A stretch of DNA of 64,000 bases from Aureimonas sp. AU20. GTDB lineage: Bacteria; Pseudomonadota; Alphaproteobacteria; Rhizobiales; Rhizobiaceae. The notes beneath the pieces were generated by a model. The model was not told the DNA's origin. It was given only the letters and a program-made list of their open reading frames with translations, and ran no database searches. The translations under genes and the position numbers were made by a program. The stretch is taken from the NCBI RefSeq assembly GCF_001442755.1, contig NZ_CP006370.1, positions 124,001 through 188,000 of the forward strand, read 5' to 3'. This document shows, one piece after another, positions 28,848 to 54,796 of this stretch (position 1 is its first letter; each line of letters begins with the position of its first letter).

Positions 28848-31800
28848 CGCAGCGGGCCGATCACCGAGACATGCGCCTCGGCCGTCTGGCCGCGCCGCTC
28901 CGGCCGGTACATGTCCTCCACCGTGGCGGCGGGGTGCACGAACTCGCCGGGCGACAGCGCCCGGACGATATAGGCAAAGCGCAGCCTTTTCAGATCGTTG
29001 GCCGGCTTGTCCACCGCCGCGAGAAAGCGCTCGGCACGAAACTCGGTGTGGGTGGCCTCGCCGGAGAGTTCGAGGAAGTCCAGCGCCGCCACGTCCCCGC
29101 CGCGCAGGATGGCGGGATTGTCGATGGCGAAGCCCGCCGGCAGCGGATCGTCGATCATCAGCCGCGCCGGAGCGGTATCGACCGGCAAGACGTCGACCAC
29201 CGCCACCAGACGCGAGCCTTGCGCGATGTTGGCCGGGTCGGCCTCCTCGCCTTCCAGCGTGTAGTAGCTTCGGGTGATCTCGTAGCCTGAGCTCATCGGC
29301 GGCAGCGGCACGCTCGGCACGCCGGCCATGGTCAGCGAGGCGGCGACCGGCGCCGCGCCCCGGTTGCCGATCACGAGACCGGGGGTCAGCGCCGCCTCGT
29401 CCAGCGTGCGGGCGAGCACGCCGTCGCGCGGCGTCCCGTCAACGGTCAGCTTGGGCGGTGCGGCGGTCAGCGCGGCGTGGGCGGCGAGCAGCGACCAGAC
29501 GTCTTCCTGCGTCGAGGTGTAGCGCTTGGCCGCGCGCTCCTGCCCGACCTTGCGCGCCAGCGGCGCGAGATCGAGCCCGTCGACCCCGGTTTCGAGCGCC
29601 AGCGTCGTGACGGCCGCGCCGTCGCGCAGCGCGGTGCCGTAGTCGCTCCGGCTCGGCGCATCGCCCGCGCCGCCCGCGGCCTGCGTCACCGCCGTTCGGA
29701 ACAGCGCCTCGGCGCGCACCCGGTCGCCATAAAGGGCGAGCGCGCCGGCCAGCTGCGCCTGCGAGAGCGGCGTCTTGAAGCCCGCCGCCTCGTTGTCGGC
29801 GGTGTAGCGCAGGTCGCCGATCGCGGCGCGGCCGTTGCGCGCCAGCACGTAATAGGCATAGGCCGCCTTGCTCCAGTCCGGCTGGTCCGGCAGGTAGGCG
29901 AGCTGGTTGCGCAGATTGTCGAGCGCCAGCGTGAAGCCCTCCGCCGGCACGTCGTAGCCCGCCTCCCGCGCGCGGGTGAGGAAGTCCGTGACATAGGCGT
30001 CGAGCCAGAGATCGCCGCTGCCCGGTGCCCAGAGGCCGAAGGCGCCGCTGGAATCCTGGTTGGCGAGAACGCTCTTGATCGCGCCGTCCACGCGCTCGCG
30101 CACCGTCTTCGTCTCGCCAGCGCGCGCTTCATCCGGCCGCGCGGCGAGCCCGGCGGCCAGCACCGTCTCGTCGAGATAGAGGAGCGGCAGGGCGCGGCTG
30201 GTGAGCTGTTCCGTGCAGCCATAGGGATAGGTATCGAGCGCGGCGACGACGCCCGCCAGATCGAACCCGCCAAGCGGCGTGACGGCCAGCGTCGCGCGCG
30301 CCGTGCCGGGCCGGAACTCCGTCAAGAGATCGGAGCCGAGCGAGAGCTGGCCCCCGGCGGCGATCTCGAAGCGGCTCTTGCGCACGGTGCGCGGCTGGAT
30401 CGATCGCACGGGCAGCGCGAAGCTCTTGTGCAGCACCGTCCCGTCCGGGGTCGTCAGGGCGAGTTCGAGCGCGCCCTCGCCCGGCCCGATTGCCTCCACC
30501 GGCACGAGCAGCCGCGCGCGGCCGCCCTCGGTGAGGTCGAGATCGGCCGAGGCGTTGGCCGCGATGCGCAAGGCGCCCTCGCCGCCGGCGAGCGCCAGAT
30601 GCACCCGGCCCGCCGGCCCTTCGACATGGTTGAGGTCGATCGCGATGCGCGAACTGTCGCCGGGGCTGAGGAACAGCGGCCGGCTGACCTGCGCCACGAT
30701 GGGATCGCGGACCAGGAGATCGGTCGAGTCCTCGCCGACGCCGGTCTTCGACCAGGCGATCGCCATCAGCTTCAGCGTGCCGTTGAAGTCGGGCACATCC
30801 AGCGTGACATGGGCCCGCCCGTCCGCCCCCACGGGAACGACGCCGGAAAACAGCGCCACGAGCTGGTCCATCGGCGGCAGGGAAACGCCGCTCGCCCCCG
30901 CGTCGCCGCCCGAACGCACCGAGCCCGGTGCGCCCTGCATCCGGTCGATCAACCGGCTGTAGAGATCGCGGATCTCGACGCCGAGCCGGCGCTGGCCGAA
31001 ATAATGGGTCTTGGGCGAAGGCGGCGCGAAGCCGGTAACGTTGAGAATGCCGGCATCGACGGCCGCGAGCGTGACGAAGGCGCTCTCCCCCGGCTTCACG
31101 CCGGCAAGCTGGAGATCGATCCCCACCGGGCCGCGCGGCGCGATGCGCTCCGGCGCTTCGATCGCCACTTGGAGCGCCCGCTCGCCCGGCTCCACGCTCG
31201 CATGGGCAAGACCCAGCGCGCGACCGGGCATCTGCTTGGCGGCGATGTCCATCGGCCGGTAGAGCACCGCCGCGACATAGGCCCCCGGCCCCCAGTCGCG
31301 CGTCACCTCCAACGTCACGTCGCCGCCGCCCAGCGGAATGTCGGCGGTGGTCACGGCGACGACGCGCTCGTCCATCACCAGCACCTGCGCCTTGCCGGCA
31401 AAGCGCGGCTCGATATGCACCACGGCCTTGTCGCCGACGCTGTAGCGCGGCTTGTCGAGTGCAATTTTCAGGATGTCCGGCGTTTCCAACGCGCGCGCGG
31501 AGACACTCCAGCCGGCGGAAAAGGCGATGCTCGCGGGCAACGCCGCCCCGGCGGGATCGGTCAGCACCAGCTCGTAGCTGCCCCAGTCGACGGGGAGCGA
31601 AAGCTTGGCCGGCGCATCGGCCGTCAGGTCGAGCGCACCGCTACTGACCCGCGCGACACGGCGCACCGGCTCGTAGTTCCAGCGCCCGTTGGAGGAATAC
31701 CACGTGTAGTCCGTCGAGATGTGGTTCAGCACCCATTGCGCGGCCTTGAGATCGACCCGCGCGCCGTCGGGGCCGACCGCGACAACCTCGAACCCGCCCT

Positions 31801-34399: not shown

Positions 34400-34525
34400 C
34401 GCCATCTCCCCCGCCTGTCCCCTGCGCCGGAATCTAGAGGAAGAGCTGTTCTCCCCACAAGCGCCGGTTTAAGGATCTATCAGGTGATTGCGCAGCGCGG
34501 ACGACGGACGGACCGCGCCGGCGCC

Positions 34526-41081: not shown

Positions 41082-42059
41082 TCACGCCCCGCGTGAGAAA
41101 CGATCCGCCTCGAACAGGAGGCTCGCCGCGCCGACCAAGCCTGCATTGTCGCCGAGGCGAGCGGCCACCAGCGGCACGGCGCGAAAGGGCGCGAGCGCCG
41201 CACGGCGCATGGCCGCTTCCACCAGCGGGCCGAGACGCGCGAACTGCCGCGACATGCCCCCGCCCATGACCAGGATCTGCGGGCTGTAGAGATGGAGAAG
41301 GCTGGCGAAGCCGAGGCCGAGAAGCTCCGCCTCCTCCTCGACCAGTCGCCCGGCCAGCGCGTCGCCGGCCTCTGCCGCCTCGAAGACCGACGCCGCCGAC
41401 AGCGCGCCCTCGCTCGCCTGGAGGCGGGAGGGTGGATCGCCCGCCGCCGCCTCGCGCGCCCGGCGCAGGAAGGCCGTGCCGGAGGCATGGGCCTCGAAGC
41501 AGCCGCGATGGCCGCAGGCGCAAAGCGCGCCGTCCCGGACGATCGTCATGTGGCCGATATGGCCGGCCATGCCCATGCGCCCGCGCAGGACCCGCCCGTC
41601 GGAGACGATGCCGCCGCCGATGCCCGTGCTGACCGTGGCGTAGACCATGTGATCGGCGCCCTGCCCGGCGCCGAAGCGCCATTCGCCGATCGCGGCGGCA
41701 ATGCCGTCGTTTTCCAGAAGGACCGGCAGGCCGCTCCGCGCTTCCACGGCGCGGGCGAGCGGGAAGTCGGTGAAGCCAGCGATCGTCGGCGTCGCCAGCG
41801 CGATGCCGTTGGCAGCGTCCAGCGGCCCCGGCGCGGACAGGCCGATGCCGAGGACCGGACTCGGCGCCTCGCGGGACATCACCCCTGCCAGATCGGCGAT
41901 CTGCGCCACCACGGCCTCGGCGCCCTCCGTGGCCGCCGTCGCCATCACCGCGCGATGCAGCACGGCGCCCGTCTCGTCGATCAGCGCGCCGCGAATTTGC
42001 GTCCCGCCGAGATCGATGCCGACGGCAAGGCGCGGGGATGGGCCGATGTCAGAGCCCAT
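41082..42059 (-). CDS. ROK family sugar kinase
   Basis: A 325-residue ROK protein without a DNA-binding domain, hence a kinase. ATP motif GIDLGGTQIRGAL (14-26), substrate/catalytic region LLENDG, phosphate loop STGIGGG, and the zinc motif H...CACGHRGCFEAHASG. The start at 42059 overlaps the end of the epimerase gene by 11 bases. Together with the Rpe-like epimerase it resembles the AlsK/AlsE pair for D-allose, but glucose, fructose or manno-type kinases look alike. Last gene of the five-gene operon. Confidence 0.9.
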   Translation of the reverse strand: MGSDIGPSPRLAVGIDLGGTQIRGALIDETGAVLHRAVMATAATEGAEAVVAQIADLAGVMSREAPSPVLGIGLSAPGPLDAANGIALATPTIAGFTDFPLARAVEARSGLPVLLENDGIAAAIGEWRFGAGQGADHMVYATVSTGIGGGIVSDGRVLRGRMGMAGHIGHMTIVRDGALCACGHRGCFEAHASGTAFLRRAREAAAGDPPSRLQASEGALSAASVFEAAEAGDALAGRLVEEEAELLGLGFASLLHLYSPQILVMGGGMSRQFARLGPLVEAAMRRAALAPFRAVPLVAARLGDNAGLVGAASLLFEADRFSRGA

Positions 42060-42756
42060 GCAGCCAGGCCGTGCGGGCGGCGAGGTCCGGCGCGTTGAAG
42101 GCGAGCGAGCCCAGCACAACGGTCTCGGCCCCCGCCTCGCGCAGGAGCGGAACGGTGTTTTCGCGAATGCCGCCATCGGCGGCGAGCACGATGCGATGCG
42201 GCGCATTCGTGGCGTCGATCAGTGCCTTGGCTTCGCGCAGCCGCTCGCCCGCCGCCTCGTTCAGGCTCTGGCCCTTCACGCCGATCGCGGTGCCGAGCAG
42301 CGTCAGGAAGCGCAGGCGCGGCAGAAAGCGAGCGACATCGCCGACCGGCGTTTCCACCCGCAGCACCATGCCGGCGGCAAGGCCCAGCGCCTCAAGCCGG
42401 TCCAGCGCCGCATCGGCCATCGCGGCGTTCTCGACATGCAGGCTGACGAGATCGGCGCCCGCCTCGGCAAACTGCTCGATCTGCGACAGGACCACGGCAT
42501 CGGCCACCATGAGATGCACATGGATCGGCTTTTGCGATGCTTTGCGAAGCGCCGCCACGAGATCGGGAAAGAACAGGAGCGCCGGCGCGAAATGCCCATC
42601 CGCGACGTCGACATGCAGAATGTCGGCATGCGGATCGATGCGGGCCATCTCGTCGGCGAGGCGCACGAGATCGGCCGACCAGACGGAATATTCCGCGATC
42701 AGGCGGTCGGTGGGCAGCTGGTCGATCCAGCCGCCGTCGCGAAGGTTCGAGCTCAT
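42049..42756 (-). CDS. ribulose-phosphate 3-epimerase family protein (AlsE-like)
   Basis: A 235-residue TIM barrel of the Rpe/AlsE family: EYSVWSADLVRLADEM, the first metal-site region HVDVADGHFAP, HVHLMV, and VLAADGGIRENT with the second metal Asp and phosphate-site glycines. Slightly longer than Rpe, with an N-terminal extension. Beside a ROK kinase it may act on a hexulose 6-phosphate (such as allulose to fructose 6-phosphate) rather than ribulose 5-phosphate; this is inference. It overlaps the upstream hydrolase by ATGA. Confidence 0.88.
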   Translation of the reverse strand: MSSNLRDGGWIDQLPTDRLIAEYSVWSADLVRLADEMARIDPHADILHVDVADGHFAPALLFFPDLVAALRKASQKPIHVHLMVADAVVLSQIEQFAEAGADLVSLHVENAAMADAALDRLEALGLAAGMVLRVETPVGDVARFLPRLRFLTLLGTAIGVKGQSLNEAAGERLREAKALIDATNAPHRIVLAADGGIRENTVPLLREAGAETVVLGSLAFNAPDLAARTAWLHGL

Positions 42757-43568
42757 CGGGGCAACTCCAGAAGAAAGCGGGAAAGGGCGGCGTGAAGATC
42801 GGCGACATAGCGCGCGCGATCCACCGCCTTGGGCGTGATCTCGACCATTGCGGCGCCGGGAACGAGCGCCGCGAGGGCCTTGGCATGGGCCAGCGGATGA
42901 ACCACGTCCCGCTCATGGCCGACGACGAGTGTCGGGACACGCAGCCGGGCGACCGCCTCGGCCGCGACGCCGGGCCCGTCCACCGAGATCGCGCGCAACA
43001 GGGCGGATGTGACGGAAAGCGGCTCGCGCGCGAAGAAGCCGCGCAAGGAAGCGAGATTGTCCGGCGCCTCCAGCGCCAGCCGCCGGGCGGTGCCGCCCGC
43101 CTCGAACAATCCGCGCGCCTCCTCGCCACTATGGGCAGCGATGAGCTCGCCGACCTCGGCATTGGGCCGCATGTTGCGCGGCGCGCGCTCCAGCACCCAG
43201 GCGGGGCGCACCAGCGCCAGACCGCGCACGAGATCGGGCCGCAGCACGGCAAGGCGCAGCGCGATGGCCGCGCCCATGGAAATGCCGCCGAGCGCGACCG
43301 GGCCGGCGCCCAGCCGCTCGATCGCCGCGATCAGATCGTCGGTGAAGGTCGCGATCGACAGGCGCGACAGGGCGCCGGGCTCCGAGCGCCCATGGCCGCG
43401 CATTTCCAGCGTCAGCCGGCGCAGCCCGGCCTCCGGCGGAAACCCCTCGCGCGTCTGCCCGGCATCGCCGCAGAGCCCGTGCTGGAAGAAGACCGGCGCG
43501 CCGGCCCCGCCGGCATCGTCGAGATGCAGCCGAACGCCGTCCGCCGTCTGGAAGCTTTCCACCGTCAC
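42753..43568 (-). CDS. alpha/beta hydrolase
   Basis: A 271-residue alpha/beta-fold hydrolase with oxyanion region FFQHGLCG, nucleophile elbow GGISMG (Ser97), and a later Asp (GHERDVVHP) and His in the expected order. Substrate unknown; in an operon of sugar enzymes a sugar ester or lactone is the natural guess. It overlaps both neighbours by 4 bases. Confidence 0.88.
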   Translation of the reverse strand: MTVESFQTADGVRLHLDDAGGAGAPVFFQHGLCGDAGQTREGFPPEAGLRRLTLEMRGHGRSEPGALSRLSIATFTDDLIAAIERLGAGPVALGGISMGAAIALRLAVLRPDLVRGLALVRPAWVLERAPRNMRPNAEVGELIAAHSGEEARGLFEAGGTARRLALEAPDNLASLRGFFAREPLSVTSALLRAISVDGPGVAAEAVARLRVPTLVVGHERDVVHPLAHAKALAALVPGAAMVEITPKAVDRARYVADLHAALSRFLLELPR

Positions 43569-44416
43569 GCGTTCTGCTCCACCAGTCCGGCGTCAGCGAG
43601 TTGCGCGCGCAGGAAACGCGCCACAGCGGGCGCCTCCGCCGCCTCCAGCCCATGCGTCACCAGAGCGCCGCGAAAACCGATCGCGCCGAGGCAGCGGAGA
43701 TAATGCGGGTAGTCGAGCACGCCCTTTCCGGCCGCGACGAAGGCGCCGTCCGGCGCGCGGTCCTTGGCGTGGCCCATCGCGATCCGGTCGCCCAGGAGAT
43801 CGACGGCTTCGGACACGAGGCGGCGCTGCCCCTCCCCGCTCGCGATCTCGAAGAGATTGGCGGGATCGAGAACGATGCGAAGGCGCGGGCTGCCCAGCTC
43901 GTCGATCAGCCGGCGCGCCTTGGCCGCGCCGTCCACGACATTGGCGAGTTCGGGCTCGATGCCCAGGTCGATCTCGTGACGCTCCGCGATGGCGAGCGCC
44001 GTTTCCATGGAGCGCAGAAGATCGCGCCAGGCCTCGGGCGAGCCGTTGTCGGCGTGGCCGCGCCACTGGTCGTCGGGGTCGCGCGTGCCCGTGCAGAGCG
44101 TGACGAGCCGCGTGCCGAGGGCGGGCGCGGCGGCGGCCAGCGCCTCCAGGCGACGATGCCCTTCCTCGCGCCGGGCGGGGTCGGGATGGATCATGTTGTA
44201 GGTGCCCGACAGCGCCACGAGCCCGACGCCTGAGGCCCGCGCGGCCCTCGCCACCCGCTCCGCCTCAGCCGGGGAAACGGCGTCCGGCATGGCGGGCAGG
44301 CCGGAACAGGCCATGTTGTATTGCGCGGCCGAGAAGCCGGCTTCCCGCACGCTGGCCAGAACCGCGTGCGGATCGGTGCCGGAAAAGGTCTTGGCGAAGA
44401 TGCCGAGGCGCATCAC
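43565..44416 (-). CDS. sugar phosphate isomerase/epimerase family protein
   Basis: A 283-residue xylose-isomerase-like TIM barrel. Metal residues are expected in GIEPELANV, RIVLDPANLFE, GHAKD and the late THGLE segment. Proteins of this type often work with Gfo/Idh dehydrogenases on 3-keto sugars or inositol derivatives, which fits the upstream dehydrogenase. It overlaps both flanking genes by 4 bases. Exact reaction unknown. Confidence 0.88.
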   Translation of the reverse strand: MMRLGIFAKTFSGTDPHAVLASVREAGFSAAQYNMACSGLPAMPDAVSPAEAERVARAARASGVGLVALSGTYNMIHPDPARREEGHRRLEALAAAAPALGTRLVTLCTGTRDPDDQWRGHADNGSPEAWRDLLRSMETALAIAERHEIDLGIEPELANVVDGAAKARRLIDELGSPRLRIVLDPANLFEIASGEGQRRLVSEAVDLLGDRIAMGHAKDRAPDGAFVAAGKGVLDYPHYLRCLGAIGFRGALVTHGLEAAEAPAVARFLRAQLADAGLVEQNA

Positions 44417-45492
44417 ACGCCTCCCGACACGTCGGCCAGCGCCACGCGCCGCCCGCCGCTCTCGACCGACCGGGCGATCGCCACCATGCCGCGCACCGAG
44501 GCCAGCCCGTCCGCCACGCTGGCGCCGGTCATCTCGGCGCCGTCCAGAACGGTGCGCGCGAATCCTTCCAACTGACGGCGATAGAAATGCCCGTCGGCGC
44601 CAAGCACCCGGTGCGTCGCGCCGTCCGCCTCGCGAAAGATGTCGACCTCGCTCGACTTGTAGTACCAGGGGTTGAAGGTCTTGCCGACGACGCTGCCGTT
44701 CCGGCCGTAGATCTGGAAGCCCTCGTGCCAGTCCATCCGCACCGCGACGGTGAGATCGAGATGGCCGAGCGTGCCGCTAGCGAACTCCACGTCCACGAAC
44801 CAGCACCACATCCCGCCGCGCTCCGACAGGCGCGCCTCGACGGCCACGATGTCGCCGGCGAAATAGCGCGCGGTGTCGATGAGATGGCAGCCATGCGCGA
44901 GCATGTAGTAGCGCCGCAGATCGGCCTTGGGGTTCTCGGCCGGCTTTCGCGCCCGCGCGCTGGTGACCACCAGCGGCTGCACGGCGTCGGTCATGGGATA
45001 GCGATGGGTCGAGTCGCAATACCAGGCCTTGAGCGCGACGAGCTCGCCCATCTCCTCGGTGATGAAGCGCTTGGCCGCCTGAAGCCCGGCGTCGTAGCGC
45101 TTCATGTGGCCGACCTGAAACACGCGGCCGGACGCGGCGACAGCGGCCTGCAGATGCTCGGCCTCCTCCACCGTCAGACCCACGGGCTTCTCGCACAGGA
45201 CATGCTTGCCCGCTTCCAGCGCGCGGATCGAAGCCGGCACGTGAAAGGCGTCGGCGGTGGCGATGATGACGGCCTCCACCTCCGGGTCGGCCAGCATGCC
45301 GTCGTAGTCGGCGAAGGACTTGGCCGCGTCGTGCGTCACCACCATGCGCTCGCGCAGGTCGTCCGCCACGTCGCAGATGGCGAAGAGATCGGCGTTCGCG
45401 GCCTTGGTGCAGCTTTCGAAATGGGCGGCCTGCGCGATCTGGCCGGCGCCGAGAACGCCGACGCGAAGACGCCTGTCTTCCTTCTGGGGCAT
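44413..45492 (-). CDS. Gfo/Idh/MocA family oxidoreductase
   Basis: A 359-residue NAD(P)-dependent sugar or cyclitol dehydrogenase. Rossmann motif GVLGAGQIAQAAH (12-24), the conserved EKPVGLTVEEAE with the catalytic Lys, and a GCHLIDTARYF active-site segment with His and Asp. First gene of the five-gene overlapping operon 45492-41082, divergent from a ROK regulator that likely controls it. Confidence 0.92.
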   Translation of the reverse strand: MPQKEDRRLRVGVLGAGQIAQAAHFESCTKAANADLFAICDVADDLRERMVVTHDAAKSFADYDGMLADPEVEAVIIATADAFHVPASIRALEAGKHVLCEKPVGLTVEEAEHLQAAVAASGRVFQVGHMKRYDAGLQAAKRFITEEMGELVALKAWYCDSTHRYPMTDAVQPLVVTSARARKPAENPKADLRRYYMLAHGCHLIDTARYFAGDIVAVEARLSERGGMWCWFVDVEFASGTLGHLDLTVAVRMDWHEGFQIYGRNGSVVGKTFNPWYYKSSEVDIFREADGATHRVLGADGHFYRRQLEGFARTVLDGAEMTGASVADGLASVRGMVAIARSVESGGRRVALADVSGGV

Positions 45493-45626
45493 GGAATGGG
45501 TCCTGACGGGAAAGCGAAACGGAAAACGAAGACAAGCGCCGCGTCGGCCCGGCGCAAGCCGGCGGCTGAGCCGTGCGCGGCCGAACGAGACGGCCCCTCC
45601 CCGGCCTTGTCCCTTCGACGCGCGAC

Positions 45627-45647
45627 TTTGTTTGGATTGAAAACAAA
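45627..45647. promoter_or_regulatory. candidate ROK-regulator operator
   Basis: TTTGTTT and AAACAAA arms around a 7-bp centre, in the 221-base divergent gap between the Gfo/Idh operon and the ROK regulator. ROK repressors bind comparable A/T-armed palindromes; the site is strikingly AT-rich for this region. Confidence 0.5.
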
Positions 45648-45713
45648 CAGCGAAGCGGGTTAGCTGTCAAGCCGTCTCAAGGGTGCTCGGTGCGCCTTCC
45701 GGAAACTTTGCCC

Positions 45714-46907
45714 ATGTCGATGCCCAAGGCCGTTCGGCACATCAACGAGAAGCGCGCGCTGGCCGCGCTGGCGCGTGAAGGCGCCCTCAGCCGGGCCGAT
45801 CTCGCGCGCCAGCTCGGCCTCACCCGATCCACCGCGAGCAGCATCGCGGCGGGCCTAATCGAGGCGGGAATGCTGCGAGAGGCGGCCTCCCCGGACGGAG
45901 GGGAGGCGGCGCGCATCGGACGCCCTGGCACCCGCCTCGCTCTGAACGGCGGCTACGGGACCTTCGTCGGCGTCGATCTCGGCATCGGCCATCTGCATCT
46001 GGTGGCGATGGACTTCGCGGGCGCCTCGCTCGCCCGGCACAGCGAGCCGCTCGACCCCGGAGCCTTGGGGCCGGAGGGCACGATGGACCGGCTTCTCTCG
46101 CGGCTCGGCGCGTTCCGCCGCCGGCTCGACCCCGGCGCGCCACTGCGCGGCATCGGGCTTGCCGTGCCGGGCATCGCGACCCCGGAGGGGAGCGTGCTGC
46201 GCCTGCCCATCCTTGGCTGGACGGATTGGCCGGCGGGGGCGCAGCTGCGCCGTGCTTTCCCCGATGTCGGCGAGATCGCGGTGGAAAACGACGCCAAAGC
46301 CTTCGCCTTCGCGGAAGCCGCATTGGGGGGCGCGGCCTTGAGGGGGCGCACGGTCCATCTCCTGCTCGATGCGGGCGTCGGCGGGGCCATCCTTCAGGAT
46401 GGAGCCTTGCAGCGCGGCGCGCGGGGCTATGCCGGCGAAATCGGCCATATGCCGGTCGGCGAGCGCGGCTTTCTGGAAGGGGCCGCCCTGCCGGGCTCGC
46501 TGGAATCCTTCGTCGGCCGCGAGGCGATCCTCCAGCGCTATCGCCTGGAAGGGGGCGAACCGACATGGCCGGCGCTTCTGGCGGCCCTGGAGGCCGACGA
46601 GCCGGCGGCGCGGCGCACCCTTTCCGCCTGGAGCCATTATCTCGGCCGGGGGCTCGCCTCGATCACGGCACTGCTCGATCCCGACGAGATCGTTCTCGCC
46701 GGCCCGGTCTGCGCCCTGTTCCAGCGCGGGGAAATAGAAGTGCGCGAGGCGTTGGCCAAACATCTCCTGCCCGGCCAGCCCCTGCCCCGGCTTTCAGCCT
46801 CGCGCCTTGGGCCGGACGGCGCGGCGCTCGGCGGCGCCCGACTGCTGCAGCGCCGCCTCCTCTCGGTGGACGAGGATTTCGTTCTCGGTCGCTTAGAGAC
46901 TGTTTGA
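45714..46907 (+). CDS. ROK family transcriptional regulator (NagC/XylR type)
   Basis: A 397-residue regulator with an N-terminal winged helix (INEKRALAALAREGALSRADLARQLGLTRSTASSIAAGLIEAGML) and a ROK sugar-sensing domain (FVGVDLGIGHLHLV; VENDAKAFAFAEA; DAGVGGAIL). The usual ROK zinc motif CGxxGC is absent: the corresponding region reads MPVGERGFLEGAALPGS. It is divergent from the Gfo/Idh operon. Its last three codons and stop (E-T-V-stop) are supplied by the inserted element at 46896-47131. Confidence 0.92.
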   Translation: MSMPKAVRHINEKRALAALAREGALSRADLARQLGLTRSTASSIAAGLIEAGMLREAASPDGGEAARIGRPGTRLALNGGYGTFVGVDLGIGHLHLVAMDFAGASLARHSEPLDPGALGPEGTMDRLLSRLGAFRRRLDPGAPLRGIGLAVPGIATPEGSVLRLPILGWTDWPAGAQLRRAFPDVGEIAVENDAKAFAFAEAALGGAALRGRTVHLLLDAGVGGAILQDGALQRGARGYAGEIGHMPVGERGFLEGAALPGSLESFVGREAILQRYRLEGGEPTWPALLAALEADEPAARRTLSAWSHYLGRGLASITALLDPDEIVLAGPVCALFQRGEIEVREALAKHLLPGQPLPRLSASRLGPDGAALGGARLLQRRLLSVDEDFVLGRLETV

Positions 46908-47142: not shown

Positions 47143-48090
47143 TCAAAGCGCCTCGGCCTCAATCCGATAGTGGGTTTCCCAAGGCTCTCCGGCGCGAAAA
47201 GCCTGCGCCGTTCCCTCGCGAAACGCCGCATGACGGATCAGATCGCCCCGGTCGAAGGCCGAGGCGATGGGCTCGACGCCGAGACCCCGGAACCGGCCGT
47301 TCCAGGGCGCGGCGTCGCGGCCGCCCTGGCTCACCCAAAGGAGGCAGTGGGGAAAGGCCGCCGGGTCCCAGGTGAAGCGAACGCGCGTTGCCGCCGCCGT
47401 GTCCTCGAGGCTCATCGCGCCCTCGCAGCGCCAAAGCTGGACCAGCTCTTCGCCAAGGCCCGGCGCCGGCAGGGCGGCGAGCGAGGCACGGTCTCCCTCC
47501 ACAGTATCGATCGCATCGAGCCGGTCGAACAGGGCGTTCGGGCGAAGGCGCGAGACATCGCGCTGGAAGGTCTCGGGGAAAACCTGCCCTTTGGCGAAGG
47601 GCGCGGGCTCGACCCGCAGACCCGCCGTCTCGGCCGGCAGGCGGAAGATCGGATGAAGGCCGATCGGCAGCGTGCAGTCGACGCGCGTCACGACCCGAAG
47701 GGTGAACTCGACCGCCGCCTCTCCCTCCACGGCCCGGATTTCGCGCTCCAGCCGCTCTACCGCATGGCCGGCGGGAAAGTCGCAGGCGAGCCGCAAGTGT
47801 CGCTCGCCCCGCTCCACCAGTTGCCAGTCGGCGTTGGAGCCGTGGCCGTGATGGGCCGGGTCCGCCTCGCCCGTGCCGAAGGGCACGCAGGGCCACTCCC
47901 CGCCGAGGGTGCGCAAATGGGCGGGAAAGCGCGTGTCGCCGAGGACGTCGGGCTCACCGTGCCAGGGCGCCTCCGCAAAGGGCTCGACCACGCGCCCGTC
48001 CGCCAGCCTCAGCTGGAGATGATGCGCCATGCCGCCGGTCGGGATGGCCAGGACGCGGCCCCGGTCCCATTCGATCGTCCAACCGTCCAT
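47143..48090 (-). CDS. aldose 1-epimerase family protein
   Basis: A 315-residue mutarotase-like protein with the beta-sandwich motifs GHGSNADWQLVE, LPIGLHPIFRLP (catalytic His region), a WRCEGAMSLED segment and C-terminal glutamate in GLGVEPIASAFDRG. ATG at 48090 has GAAGAGG upstream; a TTG further up is less likely. It lies downstream of the FrcBCA-like operon on the same strand but beyond a terminator, and is convergent with the ROK regulator across the MITE. It probably interconverts anomers of the imported sugar. Confidence 0.87.
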   Translation of the reverse strand: MDGWTIEWDRGRVLAIPTGGMAHHLQLRLADGRVVEPFAEAPWHGEPDVLGDTRFPAHLRTLGGEWPCVPFGTGEADPAHHGHGSNADWQLVERGERHLRLACDFPAGHAVERLEREIRAVEGEAAVEFTLRVVTRVDCTLPIGLHPIFRLPAETAGLRVEPAPFAKGQVFPETFQRDVSRLRPNALFDRLDAIDTVEGDRASLAALPAPGLGEELVQLWRCEGAMSLEDTAAATRVRFTWDPAAFPHCLLWVSQGGRDAAPWNGRFRGLGVEPIASAFDRGDLIRHAAFREGTAQAFRAGEPWETHYRIEAEAL

Positions 48091-48150
48091 CTGCCTCTTC
48101 CCCGCCAATTCCGGCGCGCTCTCCTTGGCGCGGCCTCGTCTCTAAGCAAA

Positions 48151-48200: not shown

Positions 48201-48950
48201 TCAGCCGCCGACCATCAGCTTCACCACCTCGTCATGGGTGGTGTCGGCGATGCGGCGCTCGCCAGCCAGCACCCCGCGCCGGAGCACGACGATACGGTCC
48301 GACACGGCGAAAATGTCCTGCAGATTGTGCGAGATGAAGATCACCCCGCGCCCCTGCGCCTTGAGCTGGTGGATCAGCGAGATGACCTTGCGCTGCTCGG
48401 GCACGCCGAGCGCGGCGGTCGGCTCGTCCATGATGAGGAGCCGAGCGTTCCAGTAGACCGCGCGGCCGATCGCGACCGCCTGCCGCTGGCCGCCCGAGAA
48501 GTTCGAGACCGGGGCCTCCATGCGCGAGACGTGGAAGTCCAGAAGCGCCATCGTGTCGCGCGCCGCGTCCGACATCTTCTTGCGGTCCAGCACCGGCAGG
48601 AAGCCGAACTTGCGCTTCATCGGCTCGCGCCCGAGGAAGATGTTGCCGCCGATCGACAGATTGTCGGCCAGAGCCAGGTCCTGGTAGATCGTTTCGATGC
48701 CGCTGTCGCGCGCCTCCTGCGGGGTCGAGAAGTGGACCGGCTTACCCTCCAGCCGGATCTCGCCCGCCGTCGGCTTGAAGACGCCCGAGATCGCCTTGAT
48801 CAGCGTCGTCTTGCCGGCTCCGTTGTCGCCGGCGAGAGCCACGACCTCGCCGGGGGCGATGGTCATGGAGAAGTCGTTCAAGGCCCGCACCGCGCCGAAA
48901 TGCTTCGACAGATTCTTGATTTCGAGAATGGGCTCGGCGGCTCTACTCAT
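48201..48950 (-). CDS. frcA: sugar ABC transporter ATP-binding protein (FrcA-like)
   Basis: A 249-residue single-domain ATPase: Walker A GDNGAGKTT (about 41-49), signature NFSGGQRQAVAIGRAV, Walker B LLIMDEPTAALG and switch His in FISHNLQDIF. Unlike the two tandem ATPases earlier, it carries only one nucleotide-binding domain, as FrcA of the rhizobial fructose transporter does. It overlaps the permease stop by 8 bases. Fructose/mannose/ribose specificity is inferred from family likeness. Confidence 0.9.
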   Translation of the reverse strand: MSRAAEPILEIKNLSKHFGAVRALNDFSMTIAPGEVVALAGDNGAGKTTLIKAISGVFKPTAGEIRLEGKPVHFSTPQEARDSGIETIYQDLALADNLSIGGNIFLGREPMKRKFGFLPVLDRKKMSDAARDTMALLDFHVSRMEAPVSNFSGGQRQAVAIGRAVYWNARLLIMDEPTAALGVPEQRKVISLIHQLKAQGRGVIFISHNLQDIFAVSDRIVVLRRGVLAGERRIADTTHDEVVKLMVGG

Positions 48951-50043
48951 CGATGCGTCCTCCGCTGAACCGGCGCTGCGCCTGGTCGATCAGAACCGAG
49001 ATGATGATGACGATGCCCACGCTGATGAACTGCCAGAAGGGTTCGACATTCACGAAGACGAGGCCGTACTGGATCACGGCGATCACGAAGGCGCCGGCGA
49101 CCGTTCCAAGGATCGTGCCCGATCCGCCGAAGAGGCTGGCGCCGCCGATCACGACCGCGGCCACGCAGTCGAGCAACAGCGGCTCGCCGGCCTGCGCCGC
49201 GCCGGCGTTGAAGCGCGCGGAGTAGACGACGCCCGCCAGCCCCGCGCAGAAGGCCGAGAGCATATAAAGGCGCAGAAGATGCGACTTCACGTCGATGCCG
49301 GAGCGGCGGGCCGCCTGAACATTGGCGCCGATGGCGTAATTGTGCTGGCCGAAGCGCGTCTGGCTGAGAATATAGTGCATCACCAGAACGAAGGCGGCGG
49401 TGATCAGGATGATGTAGGGCACGCCCAAGATGCGCCCGTTGCCGATCGTGGCGAAGAAGGAATTGCTGATCGGAACCGTGGTGCCGCCGGCCAGAAGGAA
49501 GGCGACGCCGCGCGCCACGCCGAACATGCCGAGCGTGCCGATGAACGGGGGAACCCGCAGGCGCGAGACCAGAAGCCCGTTGATGAAGCCGGGAATGCCG
49601 GCGACGAGCACGGCCACCAGCGTTCCCACGAGAACGCCCATCGGCAGGCCGAGGCCGGGCGTGGCATAGTTGATGACATGCGCCGCCACCACGGCGGCGA
49701 GGCCCATGATGAAGCCGAGCGAAAGGTCGATGCCGCCCGAGATGATGACGAAGGTCTGGCCCGTGGCCAGGATCAGCGGCGCGACGGCGAAGATCGCGAT
49801 CGACTGGATGTTGAAGGAATTGAAGATGAAGGTGCCGCCGAACTCGGCCCGCGCCCAGGCTTCGAAGCCGAGCGCCAGCGCCAGAAGAAAGAGCCAGGCG
49901 CGAAGGTCGGCGATGCGCTGAAGAAGCGTCTTGGCCTTATCGGCGTGGTCGGCCTCCGGCTTCACATGGGGGGCGGAGGCAAGGCCCGGCGCCGGAGTGG
50001 GAGACGGGCCGGGAAGCGGCGCGTCCGTCGCGGATGCTGTCAT
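48943..50043 (-). CDS. frcC: sugar ABC transporter permease (FrcC-like)
   Basis: A 366-residue permease with a proline/alanine-rich cytoplasmic leader of about 45 residues, then some ten hydrophobic helices, the family motif SGGIDLSLGFIMGLAAVV and ANVQAARRSGIDV coupling loop. It lies between binding protein and ATPase as in frcBCA. A hairpin at 50111-50147 precedes it in the transcript. Confidence 0.9.
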   Translation of the reverse strand: MTASATDAPLPGPSPTPAPGLASAPHVKPEADHADKAKTLLQRIADLRAWLFLLALALGFEAWARAEFGGTFIFNSFNIQSIAIFAVAPLILATGQTFVIISGGIDLSLGFIMGLAAVVAAHVINYATPGLGLPMGVLVGTLVAVLVAGIPGFINGLLVSRLRVPPFIGTLGMFGVARGVAFLLAGGTTVPISNSFFATIGNGRILGVPYIILITAAFVLVMHYILSQTRFGQHNYAIGANVQAARRSGIDVKSHLLRLYMLSAFCAGLAGVVYSARFNAGAAQAGEPLLLDCVAAVVIGGASLFGGSGTILGTVAGAFVIAVIQYGLVFVNVEPFWQFISVGIVIIISVLIDQAQRRFSGGRIDE

Positions 50044-50154: not shown

Positions 50155-51150
50155 TTATTCGGAGTAGACGTATTTGGCGACGTTCGGATCAGAGACGTTC
50201 GCCTTGTCGATCACCGTGAAGCCGGTGCCGATCGTGGTAGGAATCGACTGGCCGGTGAGATGGGCATAGGCGGAAACGACGCCGTAATAGCCGATCTCGG
50301 CCGGGTGCTGGGCGATCGCGGCGTCCACGAGGCCGGACTGGATGTTGCCGACGATCGAGCCCGGCGCGTCGAAGGCGACGACCTTGACGTTGCCGGTCTG
50401 GCCGGCCTGCTGCACGCCGTTGCCCGCGCCGATGGCCGAGAAGAGATTGGCGCCGAACACGCCCTTGAGGTCCGAGTTGCGGGCGTAGACCGCCTGCAGC
50501 TGGCTCGCCGCCTTGTTGGCGTCGTTCTCGTTGAACTGCGTGTCGAGAACAGTGATCTTGGGGAAGTTCTCCTTCATCTCCGCCTTGAAGCCGGCTTCGC
50601 GCTGGTCGGTGGTGGAGATGCCGGGCTTGACGTTGGAGACATAGACCTTGCCGCCCGCATCGCCGATCGCCTTGGCAAGCGCGCGTGCCGCCATGCGGCC
50701 GCCGAGCACGTTGTCCGAGGCGATGTAGGAAAGCGGGAAGTCGGCGTCGCCCGAGCCGGTCTGGTACTGGCCGGTGCCGATGAACGTGTCGACGGTGATC
50801 ACCGCGATGCCGGCGTCCTGCGCCTTGCGCAGCGGCTCGACCAGCTGGGTCTTGTCGGTCGGCGCGATCAGGATGGCGTCCGGCTTGCGCGCGATGGTCG
50901 CGTCGAGCACCGGCACCTGGACCACGGGGTTGAACTCCGGCCCGCCCTGGAACACGAGGGTCACGCCCAGCGCGTCGGCGGCGGCCTGCGCGCCCTTGCG
51001 CATCGTGATGTAGAAGGCGTCCGTGGTGAGGCCCGGAATCAGGGCCACGGTGTATTTCTTGTCCTGCGCATGGCCGGGGCCGGCGGACAGGCCGATGGAT
51101 GCGGCCACGGCAAAGCCGGCCGCCGCCTTCAGGATCGAACGACGCTGCAT
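50155..51150 (-). CDS. frcB: periplasmic sugar-binding protein (FrcB-like)
   Basis: A 331-residue solute-binding protein with a signal peptide (MQRRSILKAAAGFAVAASIG...GHAQ) and the type I binding fold (VALIPGLTTDAFYITMRKGAQAAADALGV; DAILIAPTDKTQLVEPLRKA; AVITVDTFIGTG). The start at 51150 has GGGAGG six bases upstream. First gene of the FrcBCA-like operon. A 20-bp palindrome lies about 150 bases before it, and the SorC regulator gene is next upstream. Confidence 0.9.
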   Translation of the reverse strand: MQRRSILKAAAGFAVAASIGLSAGPGHAQDKKYTVALIPGLTTDAFYITMRKGAQAAADALGVTLVFQGGPEFNPVVQVPVLDATIARKPDAILIAPTDKTQLVEPLRKAQDAGIAVITVDTFIGTGQYQTGSGDADFPLSYIASDNVLGGRMAARALAKAIGDAGGKVYVSNVKPGISTTDQREAGFKAEMKENFPKITVLDTQFNENDANKAASQLQAVYARNSDLKGVFGANLFSAIGAGNGVQQAGQTGNVKVVAFDAPGSIVGNIQSGLVDAAIAQHPAEIGYYGVVSAYAHLTGQSIPTTIGTGFTVIDKANVSDPNVAKYVYSE

Positions 51151-51296
51151 GTTTTTCCTCCCTGGGATGAGCCAAGGGTTCCCGACATGCGCTCCCACAC
51201 ATGTTCCGATCGGGGTCCGGCCCGGATGTCTCATCCGCTCGCCGGCAGCTCACCTGTGCCTATGATTTCTGCGTGAGCGGCCTTCCGTCAAGTGCA

Positions 51297-51316
51297 AATT
51301 GTTTCTGAAAGCAATT
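51297..51316. promoter_or_regulatory. candidate SorC-regulator operator
   Basis: AATTGTTTCTGAAAGCAATT: 20 bp, seven of ten base pairs symmetrical, in the promoter region of the FrcBCA-like operon. A related string CTGAAAGGAATT (minus strand, 52330-52319) lies at the presumed start of the SorC gene, suggesting a shared site. Confidence 0.45.
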
Positions 51317-51350: not shown

Positions 51351-52313
51351 TCACCCTTTCGCAGCCTCTTCCAGAACCGCTTCGGCCGTGCGCGGGTCGG
51401 TCGCCAGGGCCGAGATCAGGCCGGAGCGGGCCGCGCCCAGAATCGCCGCGGCCTTCGCCTCGCCCACCGCGACGCCGATCACCAGCGGCGTGCGGCGCAG
51501 CTGCTCGGCCGACATGGCGATCATCCGCCCCTCGCCCTCCCAGTCCGTCACGCTGCCGTCCCGCCGGACATAGTGGCGCAGGACGTCCCCCACCGCGTCG
51601 CGAAGCGCGCGCTCTCCGGGGGTCGCGGCCGTTTCGTCCGGCGAGTTGGTGGCCGGCGAATGGATGGAATGCGGCAGGCCGATGCCGACCACGGCCGCCG
51701 CCGTGCGCTCCCAGAGCGAGACGCTTCCGGCGATCGTCGGATCGGCCAGGAAGGCCTCCCGCGCCCCGGCCGAGGGCAGGTAGGGCGCATGCAGGAAATG
51801 CGGCGCGCCGCCCATGGTCTCGGCCGCAAGCCGCGCGAATTCGTTGATCTGGAAATGCGGGGCGTGCTGCTGCATGCCGCCCGTGGCGGGCACGGTGAGA
51901 ATGCCGGGAATCGCCGGCAGGCCGGTTTCCACCACGGCGCGAATCGCCCGCCCCCAGCCGATCGCGACCACAGAGCCGGCCCGCAGGCCGCAACTCAGCA
52001 GCATCTGTCCGACGGGCGCGGCCAGCGCGCCCGAGCTCGGCCCAGGCGGCACCTCCACCACGGCGGCCTGCTTCAGTCCCAGCCTTTCGACGAGGTCCCG
52101 CCCCAGCGCGTCGGGCGAAACGAGATCGCGCACCTCGATGCGCACGATCCCCTCCGCGCGCGCGCGTTGCAGAAGCCGGGAGATCGTCGCGGTCGAGAGG
52201 CCGAGGCGCTTGGCGATGTCCACCTGGCTCAGCTCGGACTCGTAATGCAGCTTGGCGACCGTGTGGATCAGAGCCCGCGACGCGGTTTGGTCGGACGAAG
52301 GTGAAGAAGCCAG
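51351..52313 (-). CDS. SorC/DeoR-type sugar-binding transcriptional regulator
   Basis: About 320 residues: N-terminal helix-turn-helix (KLHYESELSQVDIAKRLGLS then TATISRLLQRARAEGIV) and a C-terminal sugar-phosphate-binding domain of the SorC family (AVVEVPPGPS; VAIGWGRAIRAVV; TPLVIGVAVGEAKAAAILGA). The first standard start (GTG at 52223) would cut off half of the helix-turn-helix, so translation must begin upstream. The in-frame CTG at 52313, with AAAGGA eight bases before it, is my choice; an in-frame stop lies just beyond. Likely senses a phosphorylated sugar from the neighbouring aldolase/kinase route. Confidence 0.82.
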   Translation of the reverse strand: MASSPSSDQTASRALIHTVAKLHYESELSQVDIAKRLGLSTATISRLLQRARAEGIVRIEVRDLVSPDALGRDLVERLGLKQAAVVEVPPGPSSGALAAPVGQMLLSCGLRAGSVVAIGWGRAIRAVVETGLPAIPGILTVPATGGMQQHAPHFQINEFARLAAETMGGAPHFLHAPYLPSAGAREAFLADPTIAGSVSLWERTAAAVVGIGLPHSIHSPATNSPDETAATPGERALRDAVGDVLRHYVRRDGSVTDWEGEGRMIAMSAEQLRRTPLVIGVAVGEAKAAAILGAARSGLISALATDPRTAEAVLEEAAKG

Positions 52314-52442
52314 CTTGCAATTCCTTTCAGCAATATGTTACCGAGCTATATCAGCGAATGGAAACATGCAAGCGACCGGGCCGCAACCCGCCTTTCCGGC
52401 GGGCCACCGAACCCTGGCGCATCCTTGGGAGGAGGACTTCGC

Positions 52443-53357
52443 ATGGCACGGATGACCACGGCGGAACTGCGCGGCTATCACCAGATCTGCGGACCGGACG
52501 GGGCGATGATGGTCATCGCCTGCGACCAGCGGGGCGGCATGCGCACCCTCCTGGCCAGCGACCCGGCCGAGCAGGCCAAGATCGGCAACGACGTTCTGGG
52601 CCTCACCAAGGCCGACATCACCCGCCATCTCGCCAGCCAAGCGAGCTGCGTCCTGGTCGACCCGATCTGCGCGGTGCCGCAGCTGGTGGACGACGCGGTG
52701 CTGGAGCGCGGCACCGCGCTTCTGATCGGCCTCGACGCTTCGGGCTGGGACACCTCGCCCGAGGGCTACCGCCTGTCGAAGCTGGTGGACGGCGTCGATG
52801 CCCGGCGGGTGCGCGCGCTTGGCGGCACGGGCGGCAAGATCATGGTCTATCTGCGCTCCGACACGCCGGCCGCCAACACGCACAATATCGACATTCTGGA
52901 ACGGGTGATCGCCGATTTCGCCCGCGAGGACCTTCTCCTCGTGGTGGAGTTCCTGACCTACGCGCTGGAGGGCGAGAGCCCGGAGGCCTACAAGGCCAAG
53001 ATCCCCGAGCTGATCCAGGGCGGCACGCGGATCTGCCTCGATCTCGGCTCGAAGGTCCTCAAGCTTCCCTATCCCGGCTCGCCCGAATCCTGCGCCGCCG
53101 TCACGAAAATGTCGGGCGACGTGCCCTGGGCGGTGCTGTCGGCGGGCGTCGATCACGAGACCTTCCTCGGCCAGGTGGAGATCGCCATGGCGAACGGCGC
53201 TTCGGGCGTCATCGCCGGGCGCTCGCTCTGGAAGGACTGCATCTCGCTCGACCGCACGGAGACGCGCAAGCGGCTGGAAAGCGTCGCCGTTCCCCGGCTT
53301 CGCGAGATCCAGGCGGTGATCGCCCGCCACCGCGCCCCGGCCGCCAAGGTGGCCTGA
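52443..53357 (+). CDS. LacD/YihT-type class I aldolase
   Basis: A 304-residue TIM-barrel aldolase related to tagatose 1,6-bisphosphate aldolase (LacD) and sulfofructose-phosphate aldolase (YihT). Motifs are ACDQRGGMRTLL, ASCVLVDPICAVPQL, the strand GGTGGKIMVYLRSD with the probable Schiff-base Lys, VVEFLTYALEGE, LDLGSKVLKLPYPGS and SGVIAGRSLWKD phosphate site. GGGAGGAGG precedes the ATG. It is divergent from the SorC regulator and five bases before the ROK/P-loop fusion gene, so it probably cleaves the bisphosphorylated ketose that system makes. Confidence 0.87.
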   Translation: MARMTTAELRGYHQICGPDGAMMVIACDQRGGMRTLLASDPAEQAKIGNDVLGLTKADITRHLASQASCVLVDPICAVPQLVDDAVLERGTALLIGLDASGWDTSPEGYRLSKLVDGVDARRVRALGGTGGKIMVYLRSDTPAANTHNIDILERVIADFAREDLLLVVEFLTYALEGESPEAYKAKIPELIQGGTRICLDLGSKVLKLPYPGSPESCAAVTKMSGDVPWAVLSAGVDHETFLGQVEIAMANGASGVIAGRSLWKDCISLDRTETRKRLESVAVPRLREIQAVIARHRAPAAKVA

Positions 53358-53362
53358 ACGCC

Positions 53363-54796
53363 ATGGCGGGGCGGAACGCCATCGGCATCGACATCGGCGG
53401 CACGCACATCCGCGCCGCCCGCGTTTCGCCCGAGGGCGAAATCCTCGAAAGGGCGCGCGTTGCGAGCGCGCCCGATCCGCAGGTCGTGCTCGGGCGGATC
53501 GAGACGCTGGTGGCCGAGCTCGACGACGGCAGCGTCTCAGCTCTCGGCCTCGGCGTGCCGGGCCGCGTGGATTTCGCCGCGCGGCGCGTTCTCTCCGGCG
53601 GCTATGTCGATCTCTCCGGCCTTCCCCTCGCCGACCATCTTGAAGCCCGCTTCGGCTGGCCAGTGGTGGTGGACAACGACTGCTCCATGGCGCTGGTGGC
53701 GGAAACCCGCGTCGGCGCCGCCAAGGGCGCCGAGAATGTCGTGATGCTGACGATCGGCACCGGCATCGGCGGCGCGATCCTGGAGCGCGGGGCGATCCTT
53801 CGCTCGCGCGGCACGGCCGGTCAGCTCGGCCATCTCAATGTCGATCCCGCCGGCGAGCCCTGCCTTTGCGGCAAGCGCGGCTGCGTGGAAACGGTGAGTT
53901 CGGGCACCGCGCTCGGCCGCCATATCGCTCGCGCCGGCCTGCCCCAGACGACCACGGCCGCCGAGTTGCTTCAGCGCCGCGGCGAGGACGACGAGACGGC
54001 GCGCGCCGTGCTGCACGCCTGGGCCGCGCCGCTGCGCATCGCGGTGGACGATCTCGTGGCGGTTCTCGATCCCGACCTCGTGCTTCTGGGCGGGGGCCTC
54101 GGCGAAGCCGCCTTCGCGGCCCTGGCCGGCATCGAAAAGCAGGCCTCCTGGTACGACAGCCCCGTTGCCCCCGCGCGGCTGGGCGACGATGCGGGCGTGA
54201 TCGGCGCGGCTCTGGCCGCGCTTCCCGCGCGCGCGGCGTCCAAGCGCCTCGTGCTCGTCAACGGCGTTCCGGCCAGCGGCAAGAGCGGCGTGGCGCGGGC
54301 GCTGTCGGACGCGACGGGCTGGCCGATCCTTTCGCTCGACACGATCAAGAACCCGTTCCTCACCGAGATCGAAGGCGTCGATCGTCCCTTCAATCGCAAG
54401 CTCGGCCGCGCCAGCCTGCGCGCCATGTTCGCCCTGGCGCGGGAAGCGCCGGCGGGCACGACCTTGATCCTCGATGCCTGGTTCGGCTTCCAGCCCGCCG
54501 AGTTTCTGGCCGAACTCCTCGGCGAAGCGGGCATCGACACGGTTGCCGAACTCTGGTGCTCGGCCCCGCCCGAGCTCATCGGCGCGCGGTACGGCGCACG
54601 CGTGAATGAGCGCCCGCCCGGCCATCCCGGTCTCGACTACGTGCCCGAACTCGTAGCCCTCGCCGCAAGGGCGCGCCCGCTCGATCTCGGCCCCCGGCTC
54701 GATGTGGACACGACGGAGCGGTTCGACCTGATGCAAACGCGGCATTGGCTTGCGTCCGCTCTGGCCGACAAAGCGCCGGCCAGTCTGGCGGCCTAG
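53363..54796 (+). CDS. ROK family kinase fused to a P-loop kinase-like domain
   Basis: A 477-residue two-domain protein. Residues 1-288 are a complete ROK sugar kinase: DIGGT (10-14), VDNDC with catalytic Asp106, GTGIGGA loop, and zinc motif His157, Cys167, Cys169, Cys174. Residues 294-470 form a separate P-loop domain of the AAA_33/zeta-toxin/chloramphenicol-phosphotransferase kind: Walker A GVPASGKS (301-308), LSLDTIKNPF, TLILDAWFG and an Arg-rich lid region (RYGARVNERPPGHPG). This architecture is unusual. It follows the aldolase by five bases and is closed by a terminator. Confidence 0.9.
   Translation: MAGRNAIGIDIGGTHIRAARVSPEGEILERARVASAPDPQVVLGRIETLVAELDDGSVSALGLGVPGRVDFAARRVLSGGYVDLSGLPLADHLEARFGWPVVVDNDCSMALVAETRVGAAKGAENVVMLTIGTGIGGAILERGAILRSRGTAGQLGHLNVDPAGEPCLCGKRGCVETVSSGTALGRHIARAGLPQTTTAAELLQRRGEDDETARAVLHAWAAPLRIAVDDLVAVLDPDLVLLGGGLGEAAFAALAGIEKQASWYDSPVAPARLGDDAGVIGAALAALPARAASKRLVLVNGVPASGKSGVARALSDATGWPILSLDTIKNPFLTEIEGVDRPFNRKLGRASLRAMFALAREAPAGTTLILDAWFGFQPAEFLAELLGEAGIDTVAELWCSAPPELIGARYGARVNERPPGHPGLDYVPELVALAARARPLDLGPRLDVDTTERFDLMQTRHWLASALADKAPASLAA

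Follow-up and report, generated by a model that had tools for sequence, protein, structure and literature searches.

The question raised by the locus described here is what is done by a single chain that joins a ROK-family sugar kinase to a P-loop kinase domain, encoded directly behind a LacD-type aldolase. The locus lies in a window of 64,000 nucleotides from Aureimonas sp. AU20 (contig NZ_CP006370.1, positions 124,001 to 188,000), the window being the whole stretch of DNA that was analysed. An earlier note on this DNA had suggested that the fusion phosphorylates one ketose at two positions and passes a bisphosphate to the aldolase. In the reading that we favour and consider probable, a ketose is imported, phosphorylated by the ROK domain and then by the P-loop domain, and cleaved as the bisphosphate by the aldolase, all under the control of a SorC-type regulator. 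The sugar, the positions and order of phosphorylation and the hand-over between the domains are as we infer them: the imported ketose would have the D-lyxo arrangement at C3–C5 and would most likely be D-mannoheptulose, possibly D-tagatose; the ROK half would phosphorylate the terminal carbon farthest from the ketone, which is C7 in a heptulose and C6 in a hexulose, and the P-loop half C1. The aldolase would then split the 1,7-bisphosphate into dihydroxyacetone phosphate and erythrose 4-phosphate, or a hexulose 1,6-bisphosphate into dihydroxyacetone phosphate and glyceraldehyde 3-phosphate.

The fusion protein is encoded by one frame of 477 residues, which runs to position 54796 without an internal stop. 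Its first part matches the ROK family (PF00480, residues 7–285) with 181.6 bits against a cut-off of 22.9, and contains the catalytic Asp106 and the zinc-type residues His157, Cys167, Cys169 and Cys174. The second part matches the AAA_33 family (PF13671, residues 296–417) with 33.3 bits against a cut-off of 27 and has a Walker A motif of its own, GVPASGKS, at residues 301–308. The earlier note had described a complete ROK kinase followed, with no stop or frameshift between, by a domain with its own Walker A, and this description stands. A protein search with the fusion gave 1436 matches at E ≤ 1e-3 (7995 candidates scored), and the search for the combined domain architecture that had been proposed bears the fusion out: both Pfam domains are present in one chain in 117 of 120 among the matches listed, the query's own protein included, while in the other three (P0020, P0044 and P0071) the ROK domain is found and AAA_33 is not called. 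The closest named relatives among the matches listed are from Aureimonas, with 82% identity.

For a closer comparison, the best 80 of 277 genome stretches encoding a relative of the fusion were taken, mainly from Aureimonas, Mesorhizobium, Rhizobium, Agrobacterium vitis and Rhodobacterales. All 80 loci, which belong to several families, have a single fused open frame. The mean identity to the window fusion is 61% for the ROK domain and 59% for the P-loop domain, and residues Asp106, Gln154, His157, Cys167, Cys169, Cys174, Lys307, Asp326, Lys329, Asp371, Arg409, Arg413 and Arg417 are each conserved in every locus. Nearly constant are Ser305, Ser308, Arg341 and Arg345 (79 of 80 each) and Asp340 and Gly420 (78 of 80 each). 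A degenerate P-loop domain in the orthologues had been named beforehand as an outcome that would speak against two kinase activities; with the main catalytic residues kept throughout, this objection falls away. The fusion is real and old, and not a product of chance or of sequencing error.

Both halves carry features that may bear on the substrate. When P-loop rows are aligned, Lys329, Arg341, Arg345, Arg409, Arg413, Arg417 and His421 are identical in 27 of 27, a constancy of arginine, lysine and histidine that would suit a substrate already phosphorylated. The best solved relative of this domain is 2rhm. The ROK domain remains under the NCBIfam cut-offs for named specificities (glucokinase, NanK, AlsK, fructokinase), the best being TIGR00744 with 162.9 against 260.35 bits. 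Its ExGH motif reads QxGH, and position 154 is glutamine in 87 of 87 distinct ROK domains of the module, while in 26 other ROK proteins of the fetched loci it is Glu (15), His (10) or Asp (1); these counts derive from 135 ROK hits, less 21 duplicates and one that was too short. The QxGH signature may be the sign of a distinct sugar.

The features of the module in the window are as follows.

52443–53357, plus strand: class I aldolase of the DeoC/LacD family (PF01791), 304 residues, from ATG at 52443 to the stop at 53355–53357.
53363–54796, plus strand: fused ROK kinase and P-loop (AAA_33) kinase, 477 residues, from ATG at 53363.
53381–54217, plus strand: ROK domain, residues 7–285, with Asp106, QxGH containing Gln154, and the zinc motif CxCGxxGC.
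54242–54772, plus strand: P-loop kinase domain, approximately residues 294–470 (Pfam match 296–417), with Walker A at 301–308, Asp326, Lys329, Asp371 and the arginine-rich stretch Arg409/Arg413/Arg417-GHPG.
51351–52313, minus strand: divergent SorC-type regulator (PF04198), with a probable CTG start at 52313 placed by eye.
50155–51234, minus strand: periplasmic sugar-binding protein (PF13407), near relative of PDB 5dkv.
48943–50043, minus strand: permease (PF02653) of an ATP-binding cassette (ABC) importer.
48201–48950, minus strand: ABC ATPase (PF00005), single domain, 249 residues.
52319–52333, plus strand: operator-like element AATTCCTTTCAGCAA in the divergent region between the SorC and aldolase genes, overlapping the presumed ribosome-binding site of the SorC gene.
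51302–51316, minus strand: second copy of the element, AATTGCTTTCAGAAA, upstream of the binding-protein gene, forming the core of the dyad AAATTG-N10-CAATTT.

The aldolase gene ends five bases ahead of the fusion, as the earlier note had stated. For the SorC gene, no in-frame ATG, GTG or TTG occurs from the upstream stop to the helix-turn-helix, and the start region (52311–52333) has a clear ribosome-binding site before the CTG. The gene at 47143–48108, epimerase-like by eye, was excluded from the module, since a single one of the 80 loci has a counterpart, a weak one, and since no Pfam family matches it at E ≤ 1e-8.

These genes are kept together. Beside the fusion, the aldolase is found in 79 of the 80 loci, the SorC gene in 78 and the binding protein, permease and ATPase in 77, with the full set of all five present in 77. 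Among the incomplete loci, L069 is a contig of 4.3 kb and in L061 the fusion lies 1.7 kb from a contig end; L056 is the sole one to lack the importer inside a full 19-kb stretch, and contains the aldolase and fusion. In L056 the SorC gene is oriented the other way. The presence of an importer and a SorC regulator alongside the fusion, as well as the neighbourhood comparison that had been proposed, are both borne out by these counts, and the fusion, aldolase, regulator and importer form one conserved and apparently co-regulated module. The regulator matches the SorC-type sugar-binding domain, and none of the three importer proteins reaches the cut-off of any NCBIfam model listed, the listing for the ATPase comprising 25 of 196 families. 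Co-occurrence of the aldolase and the P-loop domain over 385 class-level genomes was uninformative, with only the window's own genome matching either query at the cut-offs used.

The two promoter regions share the operator-like element AATTSCTTTCAGMAA, which is present in both without mismatch. It was picked by eye from these two promoters, and their perfect match is therefore circular; what carries weight is how often it occurs across the genome and whether it recurs in other loci. At up to two mismatches the window contains three matches, where 0.07 would be expected, and an extended form occurs twice in the whole 5.2-Mb genome, both times at the module, with none for the reversed control. 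Allowing two mismatches and with one more position relaxed to W, the element is found in the SorC/aldolase region of 79 of the 80 loci. In 52 of them it also occurs ahead of the binding-protein frame, at a distance of up to about 350 bases, and the rest of their 1.45 Mb contains 11 further matches. The divergent copy overlaps the presumed ribosome-binding site of the SorC gene and its conservation may partly reflect that, while the copy upstream of the binding-protein gene has no such overlap. A blind search for exact dyads common to the two promoters gave nothing useful. The SorC protein would bind the shared element and control both transcription units through it.

The role of the P-loop kinase is best approached through relatives in which it occurs outside the fusion. 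In a phylum-wide sample, the domain was found at E ≤ 1e-15 in 11 of 398 genomes, seven of them outside the window's class; within one family of this kind, 37 of 198 genomes have it. All seven outside-class loci plus those 32 of the 37 not among them make up 39 neighbourhoods, whose designation as gammaproteobacterial is partly drawn from named homologues and same-phylum placement; the named stand-alone homologues include Brenneria, Biostraticola and Pectobacteriaceae. The P-loop protein keeps Walker A, D..K and DAWFG in all 39. Each of these loci contains a phosphotransferase system (PTS) IIC component similar to the EIIC-GAT/ascorbate type, together with IIA and IIB, and none has a ROK relative of more than 40% identity (one distant ROK, 29%, is present in L193). 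A PTS delivers its sugar already phosphorylated; with a PTS present, the ROK kinase is absent while the P-loop kinase stays, which fits a second phosphorylation before cleavage.

The aldolases of the 39 loci are of two non-homologous kinds, 20 being LacD-type and 19 class II. Half of the LacD-type loci (10) have a SorC gene and no phosphofructokinase (PFK) relative above 40% identity, the other 10 have a PFK relative and no SorC gene, and all 19 class II loci carry a PFK relative. The scan against curated families covered L128 and L131, the other loci being assigned by similarity to these two; the class II aldolase of L131, the one scanned, passes the ketose-bisphosphate aldolase cut-off. The ten SorC-containing loci (L128 and L170–L178) resemble the window module in their regulator, their LacD-type aldolase, the same P-loop family and the operator-like element, which lies between the SorC and aldolase genes in ten of ten; they differ in that IIA, IIB and IIC replace the ABC importer and the ROK kinase, and in that the P-loop kinase stands alone. 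The exchange of ROK for PTS, combined with the swapping of non-homologous aldolases, is most simply explained if the P-loop kinase adds its phosphate second, after ROK or the PTS has provided one. As a separate observation, in 29 loci (L129–L134 and L179–L201) the genes for the PFK-like kinase, the PTS, the aldolase and the P-loop kinase form an operon together with one for a small protein of about 90 residues.

A third arrangement came from the loci fetched for six relatives (L111–L116, with 18 kb fetched for L111 and L113). The ROK and P-loop kinases are separate, adjacent genes behind the same aldolase and in the same order in L111, L112, L113 and L115, and fused in L114 and L116. The element is absent from the split loci L113 and L115 at two mismatches. 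In a midpoint-rooted tree of P-loop domains, built from 30 of 83 fused rows, four split and seven stand-alone ones, the split forms group as one clade inside the fused ones, two of them with long, meeting branches; the tree is compatible either with fission or with repeated fusion. The fusion, the split forms and the PTS-fed relatives are three natural versions of apparently one pathway, and the role of each kinase thereby becomes directly testable.

The aldolase itself matches PF01791 with 54.8 bits against a cut-off of 23.8. In 14 aligned aldolases Lys207, which we take to be the Schiff-base lysine as placed by alignment, is invariant, and the stretch GASGVIAGRSLW, which may be read as a phosphate-binding motif, is identical except for Ser261 (13 of 14). 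The best solved relative of its profile, with 96.1 bits, is YihT (7ag7, 7ne2 and 1to3). The product of its characterised relatives is dihydroxyacetone phosphate, for which C1 must have been phosphorylated before cleavage.

With regard to the sugar, the best solved match of the window's binding protein is 5dkv, with 515 bits and the next at 122. This entry is presumably Avi_5339 in complex with alpha-D-tagatopyranose. Over 302 residues, 5dkv shares about 98% identity with the binding protein of the matching Agrobacterium vitis CG78 locus (L085). A 2017 paper cites an unpublished observation that A. vitis Avi_5339 binds mannoheptulose, which is there said to resemble D-tagatose (PMC5507952).

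Several points weigh against the pathway that we favour. A PFK-like kinase is also present in 29 of the 39 PTS loci, and all 29 keep the catalytic stretch TIDND, so that a second candidate for adding the second phosphate exists there and the favoured scheme does not account for the P-loop gene of those loci; L176, one of the ten SorC-type loci, holds a diverged PFK relative (28%) without TIDND. The split locus L111 is without an importer and L113 is without a SorC gene in the 18 kb fetched. Against the tagatose-bisphosphate aldolase models listed in NCBIfam, the aldolase scores below the cut-off in each case (TIGR01232, 52.4 against 432.2 bits; PRK12858, 155.2 against 184). Beside the module, a tagatose-kinase-like gene is found in 23 of the 80 loci and GatZ in 17, so that tagatose stays a candidate. 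For the ligand, the evidence consists of the unpublished observation cited in PMC5507952 and the presumed D-tagatose of 5dkv, and the proposed positions of the phosphates follow the known behaviour of ROK kinases and LacD-type aldolases. No activity test of the pathway was found in the literature searched. Taken together, the earlier note's proposal of phosphorylation at two positions before LacD-type cleavage is partly supported: it gains from the intact P-loop domain, the conserved module and the exchange of ROK for PTS, and loses from the PFK-like kinases. As an observation on these kinases, the PFK-like protein of L131 (L131:4670-5659) keeps TIDND and is without the arginine of PfkA's MGR and the histidine of GHIQRGG, both residues with roles in PfkA; the changes hint at another sugar phosphate.

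The same two-kinase mechanism might act on D-tagatose, the ROK domain making the 6-phosphate and the P-loop domain the 1,6-bisphosphate for a true tagatose-bisphosphate aldolase. We regard this as possible, if on balance doubtful. The membership of the aldolase in the DeoC/LacD family agrees with it, as do the tagatose-kinase-like and GatZ genes just mentioned and the presumed tagatopyranose of 5dkv. The window's genome, however, has a tagatose kinase (NF049991, 433.8 bits against a cut-off of 420) adjoining a homologue of GatZ/KbaZ (TIGR02810, above cut-off) at L146:9843-15081, about 52 kb before the window, probably a galactitol/tagatose route, and in 16 of the 80 loci both genes stand beside the module itself. 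Since a second tagatose route would be redundant, and with mannoheptulose named as the ligand in PMC5507952, we prefer mannoheptulose and keep tagatose second; the common ketohexoses that the earlier note had put forward rank below mannoheptulose, tagatose being the one that keeps a place. The stretch L146:9843-15081 also encodes a short-chain dehydrogenase/reductase of the L-iditol 2-dehydrogenase type; two more of its genes, judged by eye, are for a LacI regulator and a protein resembling alcohol dehydrogenases.

It is also conceivable, and in our judgement unlikely, that the P-loop domain acts after cleavage, on free dihydroxyacetone or a small aldehyde derived from a monophosphate. Such a role would explain why the P-loop gene persists in loci with a PTS, including those that encode a PFK-like kinase as well. 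It fits poorly with the need of the aldolase's relatives for a prior C1 phosphate, with the near invariance of GASGVIAGRSLW among the 14 aligned aldolases and with the class II aldolases of 19 PTS loci, whose scanned member in L131 passes the ketose-bisphosphate cut-off.

Quite unlikely, in turn, is a regulatory or transport-affecting role like that of FrcK of Sinorhizobium meliloti, whose gene accompanies the FrcBCA importer. There too a P-loop protein is encoded beside a sugar ABC importer, an frcK mutant takes up about half the amount of fructose, and the substrate of FrcK is unknown (PMC10433430). The P-loop protein described here is likewise accompanied by sugar uptake genes, for an ABC importer in 77 of the 80 alphaproteobacterial loci and for a PTS in the 39 others without exception. 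FrcK, however, is described as pantothenate-kinase-like, and the available part of that paper mentions no ROK kinase fused to it (PMC10433430), whereas the window domain belongs to AAA_33 with 2rhm as its best solved relative, and its fusion or adjacency to the ROK and aldolase genes points to a pathway and not to a transporter. The reading of the importer as one for fructose by way of the FrcK parallel was rejected since FrcK belongs to another P-loop family, and the parallel is kept as a rival only. A chance fusion or sequencing artefact can be dismissed in view of the single open frame in all 80 loci and the shared architecture of 117 out of 120 among the matches listed.

The pathway favoured here, from mannoheptulose through two phosphorylations to aldolase cleavage, has a precedent on paper. 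A hypothetical mannoheptulose pathway was proposed in 2017 for a locus of Rhodobacteriaceae bin08, with genes for an ABC importer, an aldolase of COG3684 and two kinases, one a ROK protein (COG1940) and the other of COG0529, and with conversion of mannoheptulose 7-phosphate to the 1,7-bisphosphate and on to glycerone phosphate and erythrose 4-phosphate (PMC5507952). By Pfam, the kinds of genes in the window match that set, the comparison being one of described gene kinds and not of the bin08 sequence. The two loci agree in an importer, whose binding protein is close to Avi_5339 in bin08 and presumably so in the window, in an aldolase, a ROK kinase, a second kinase and the proposed chemistry; they differ in that bin08 is described as having two kinases, with the word 'fused' absent from the main text as available, one genome and no PTS variant, and in that its second kinase is assigned to COG0529, not AAA_33 (PMC5507952). 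They probably belong to the same family. The suggestion in the earlier note that the route might be undescribed has to be given up, since the same kinds of genes and chemistry were proposed in that paper. What is added here is the conserved fusion, the split and PTS-fed counterparts with their exchange of ROK for PTS, the QxGH signature and the operator-like element. Among the papers listed for the terms used, in a literature set that left out most subscription journals, neither a description of a ROK/AAA_33 fusion nor a tested bacterial catabolic pathway for mannoheptulose was found, PMC5507952 being the one paper on mannoheptulose that dealt with bacteria.

Two further systems invite comparison. 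The LacC/LacD route of Gram-positive bacteria for tagatose 6-phosphate likewise proceeds from ketose phosphate to bisphosphate and ends with a class I aldolase that shares its Pfam family with the one in the window, but its second kinase, LacC, is PfkB-type and not a P-loop protein, and the window aldolase is far below TIGR01232, as given above. YihT, the sulfofructose-phosphate aldolase and best solved relative, differs in its substrate, a 1-phosphate with a sulfonate at C6.

A bolder version of the two-kinase reading may be advanced tentatively. The P-loop domain could be the founding member of a ketose-phosphate 1-kinase family without kinship to PfkA, PfkB or 1-phosphofructokinase. It would be a plug-in second kinase, which alphaproteobacteria have joined to ROK in one chain and gammaproteobacteria combine with a PTS, the window enzyme being bifunctional and converting D-mannoheptulose to its 1,7-bisphosphate in one chain. 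If this is true, the fusion would be a dedicated means of eating a seven-carbon plant sugar. Avocado uses mannoheptulose as a major sugar for both transport and storage, and the compound is described as inhibiting hexokinase competitively (PMC6606701).

Elsewhere in the window, a second sugar cluster (41082–46907) contains a ROK kinase with histidine at the ExGH position, a xylose-isomerase-like TIM barrel, a Gfo/Idh oxidoreductase and a divergent gene that resembles those of ROK-type regulators; L112, L113 and L116 likewise have, close to the module, ROK genes that are about as distant. At 28844–34405, a bacterial alpha-2-macroglobulin-like protein of 1853 residues is encoded, with MG2, bMG3, bMG5, bMG6, bMG10 and bait-region domains.

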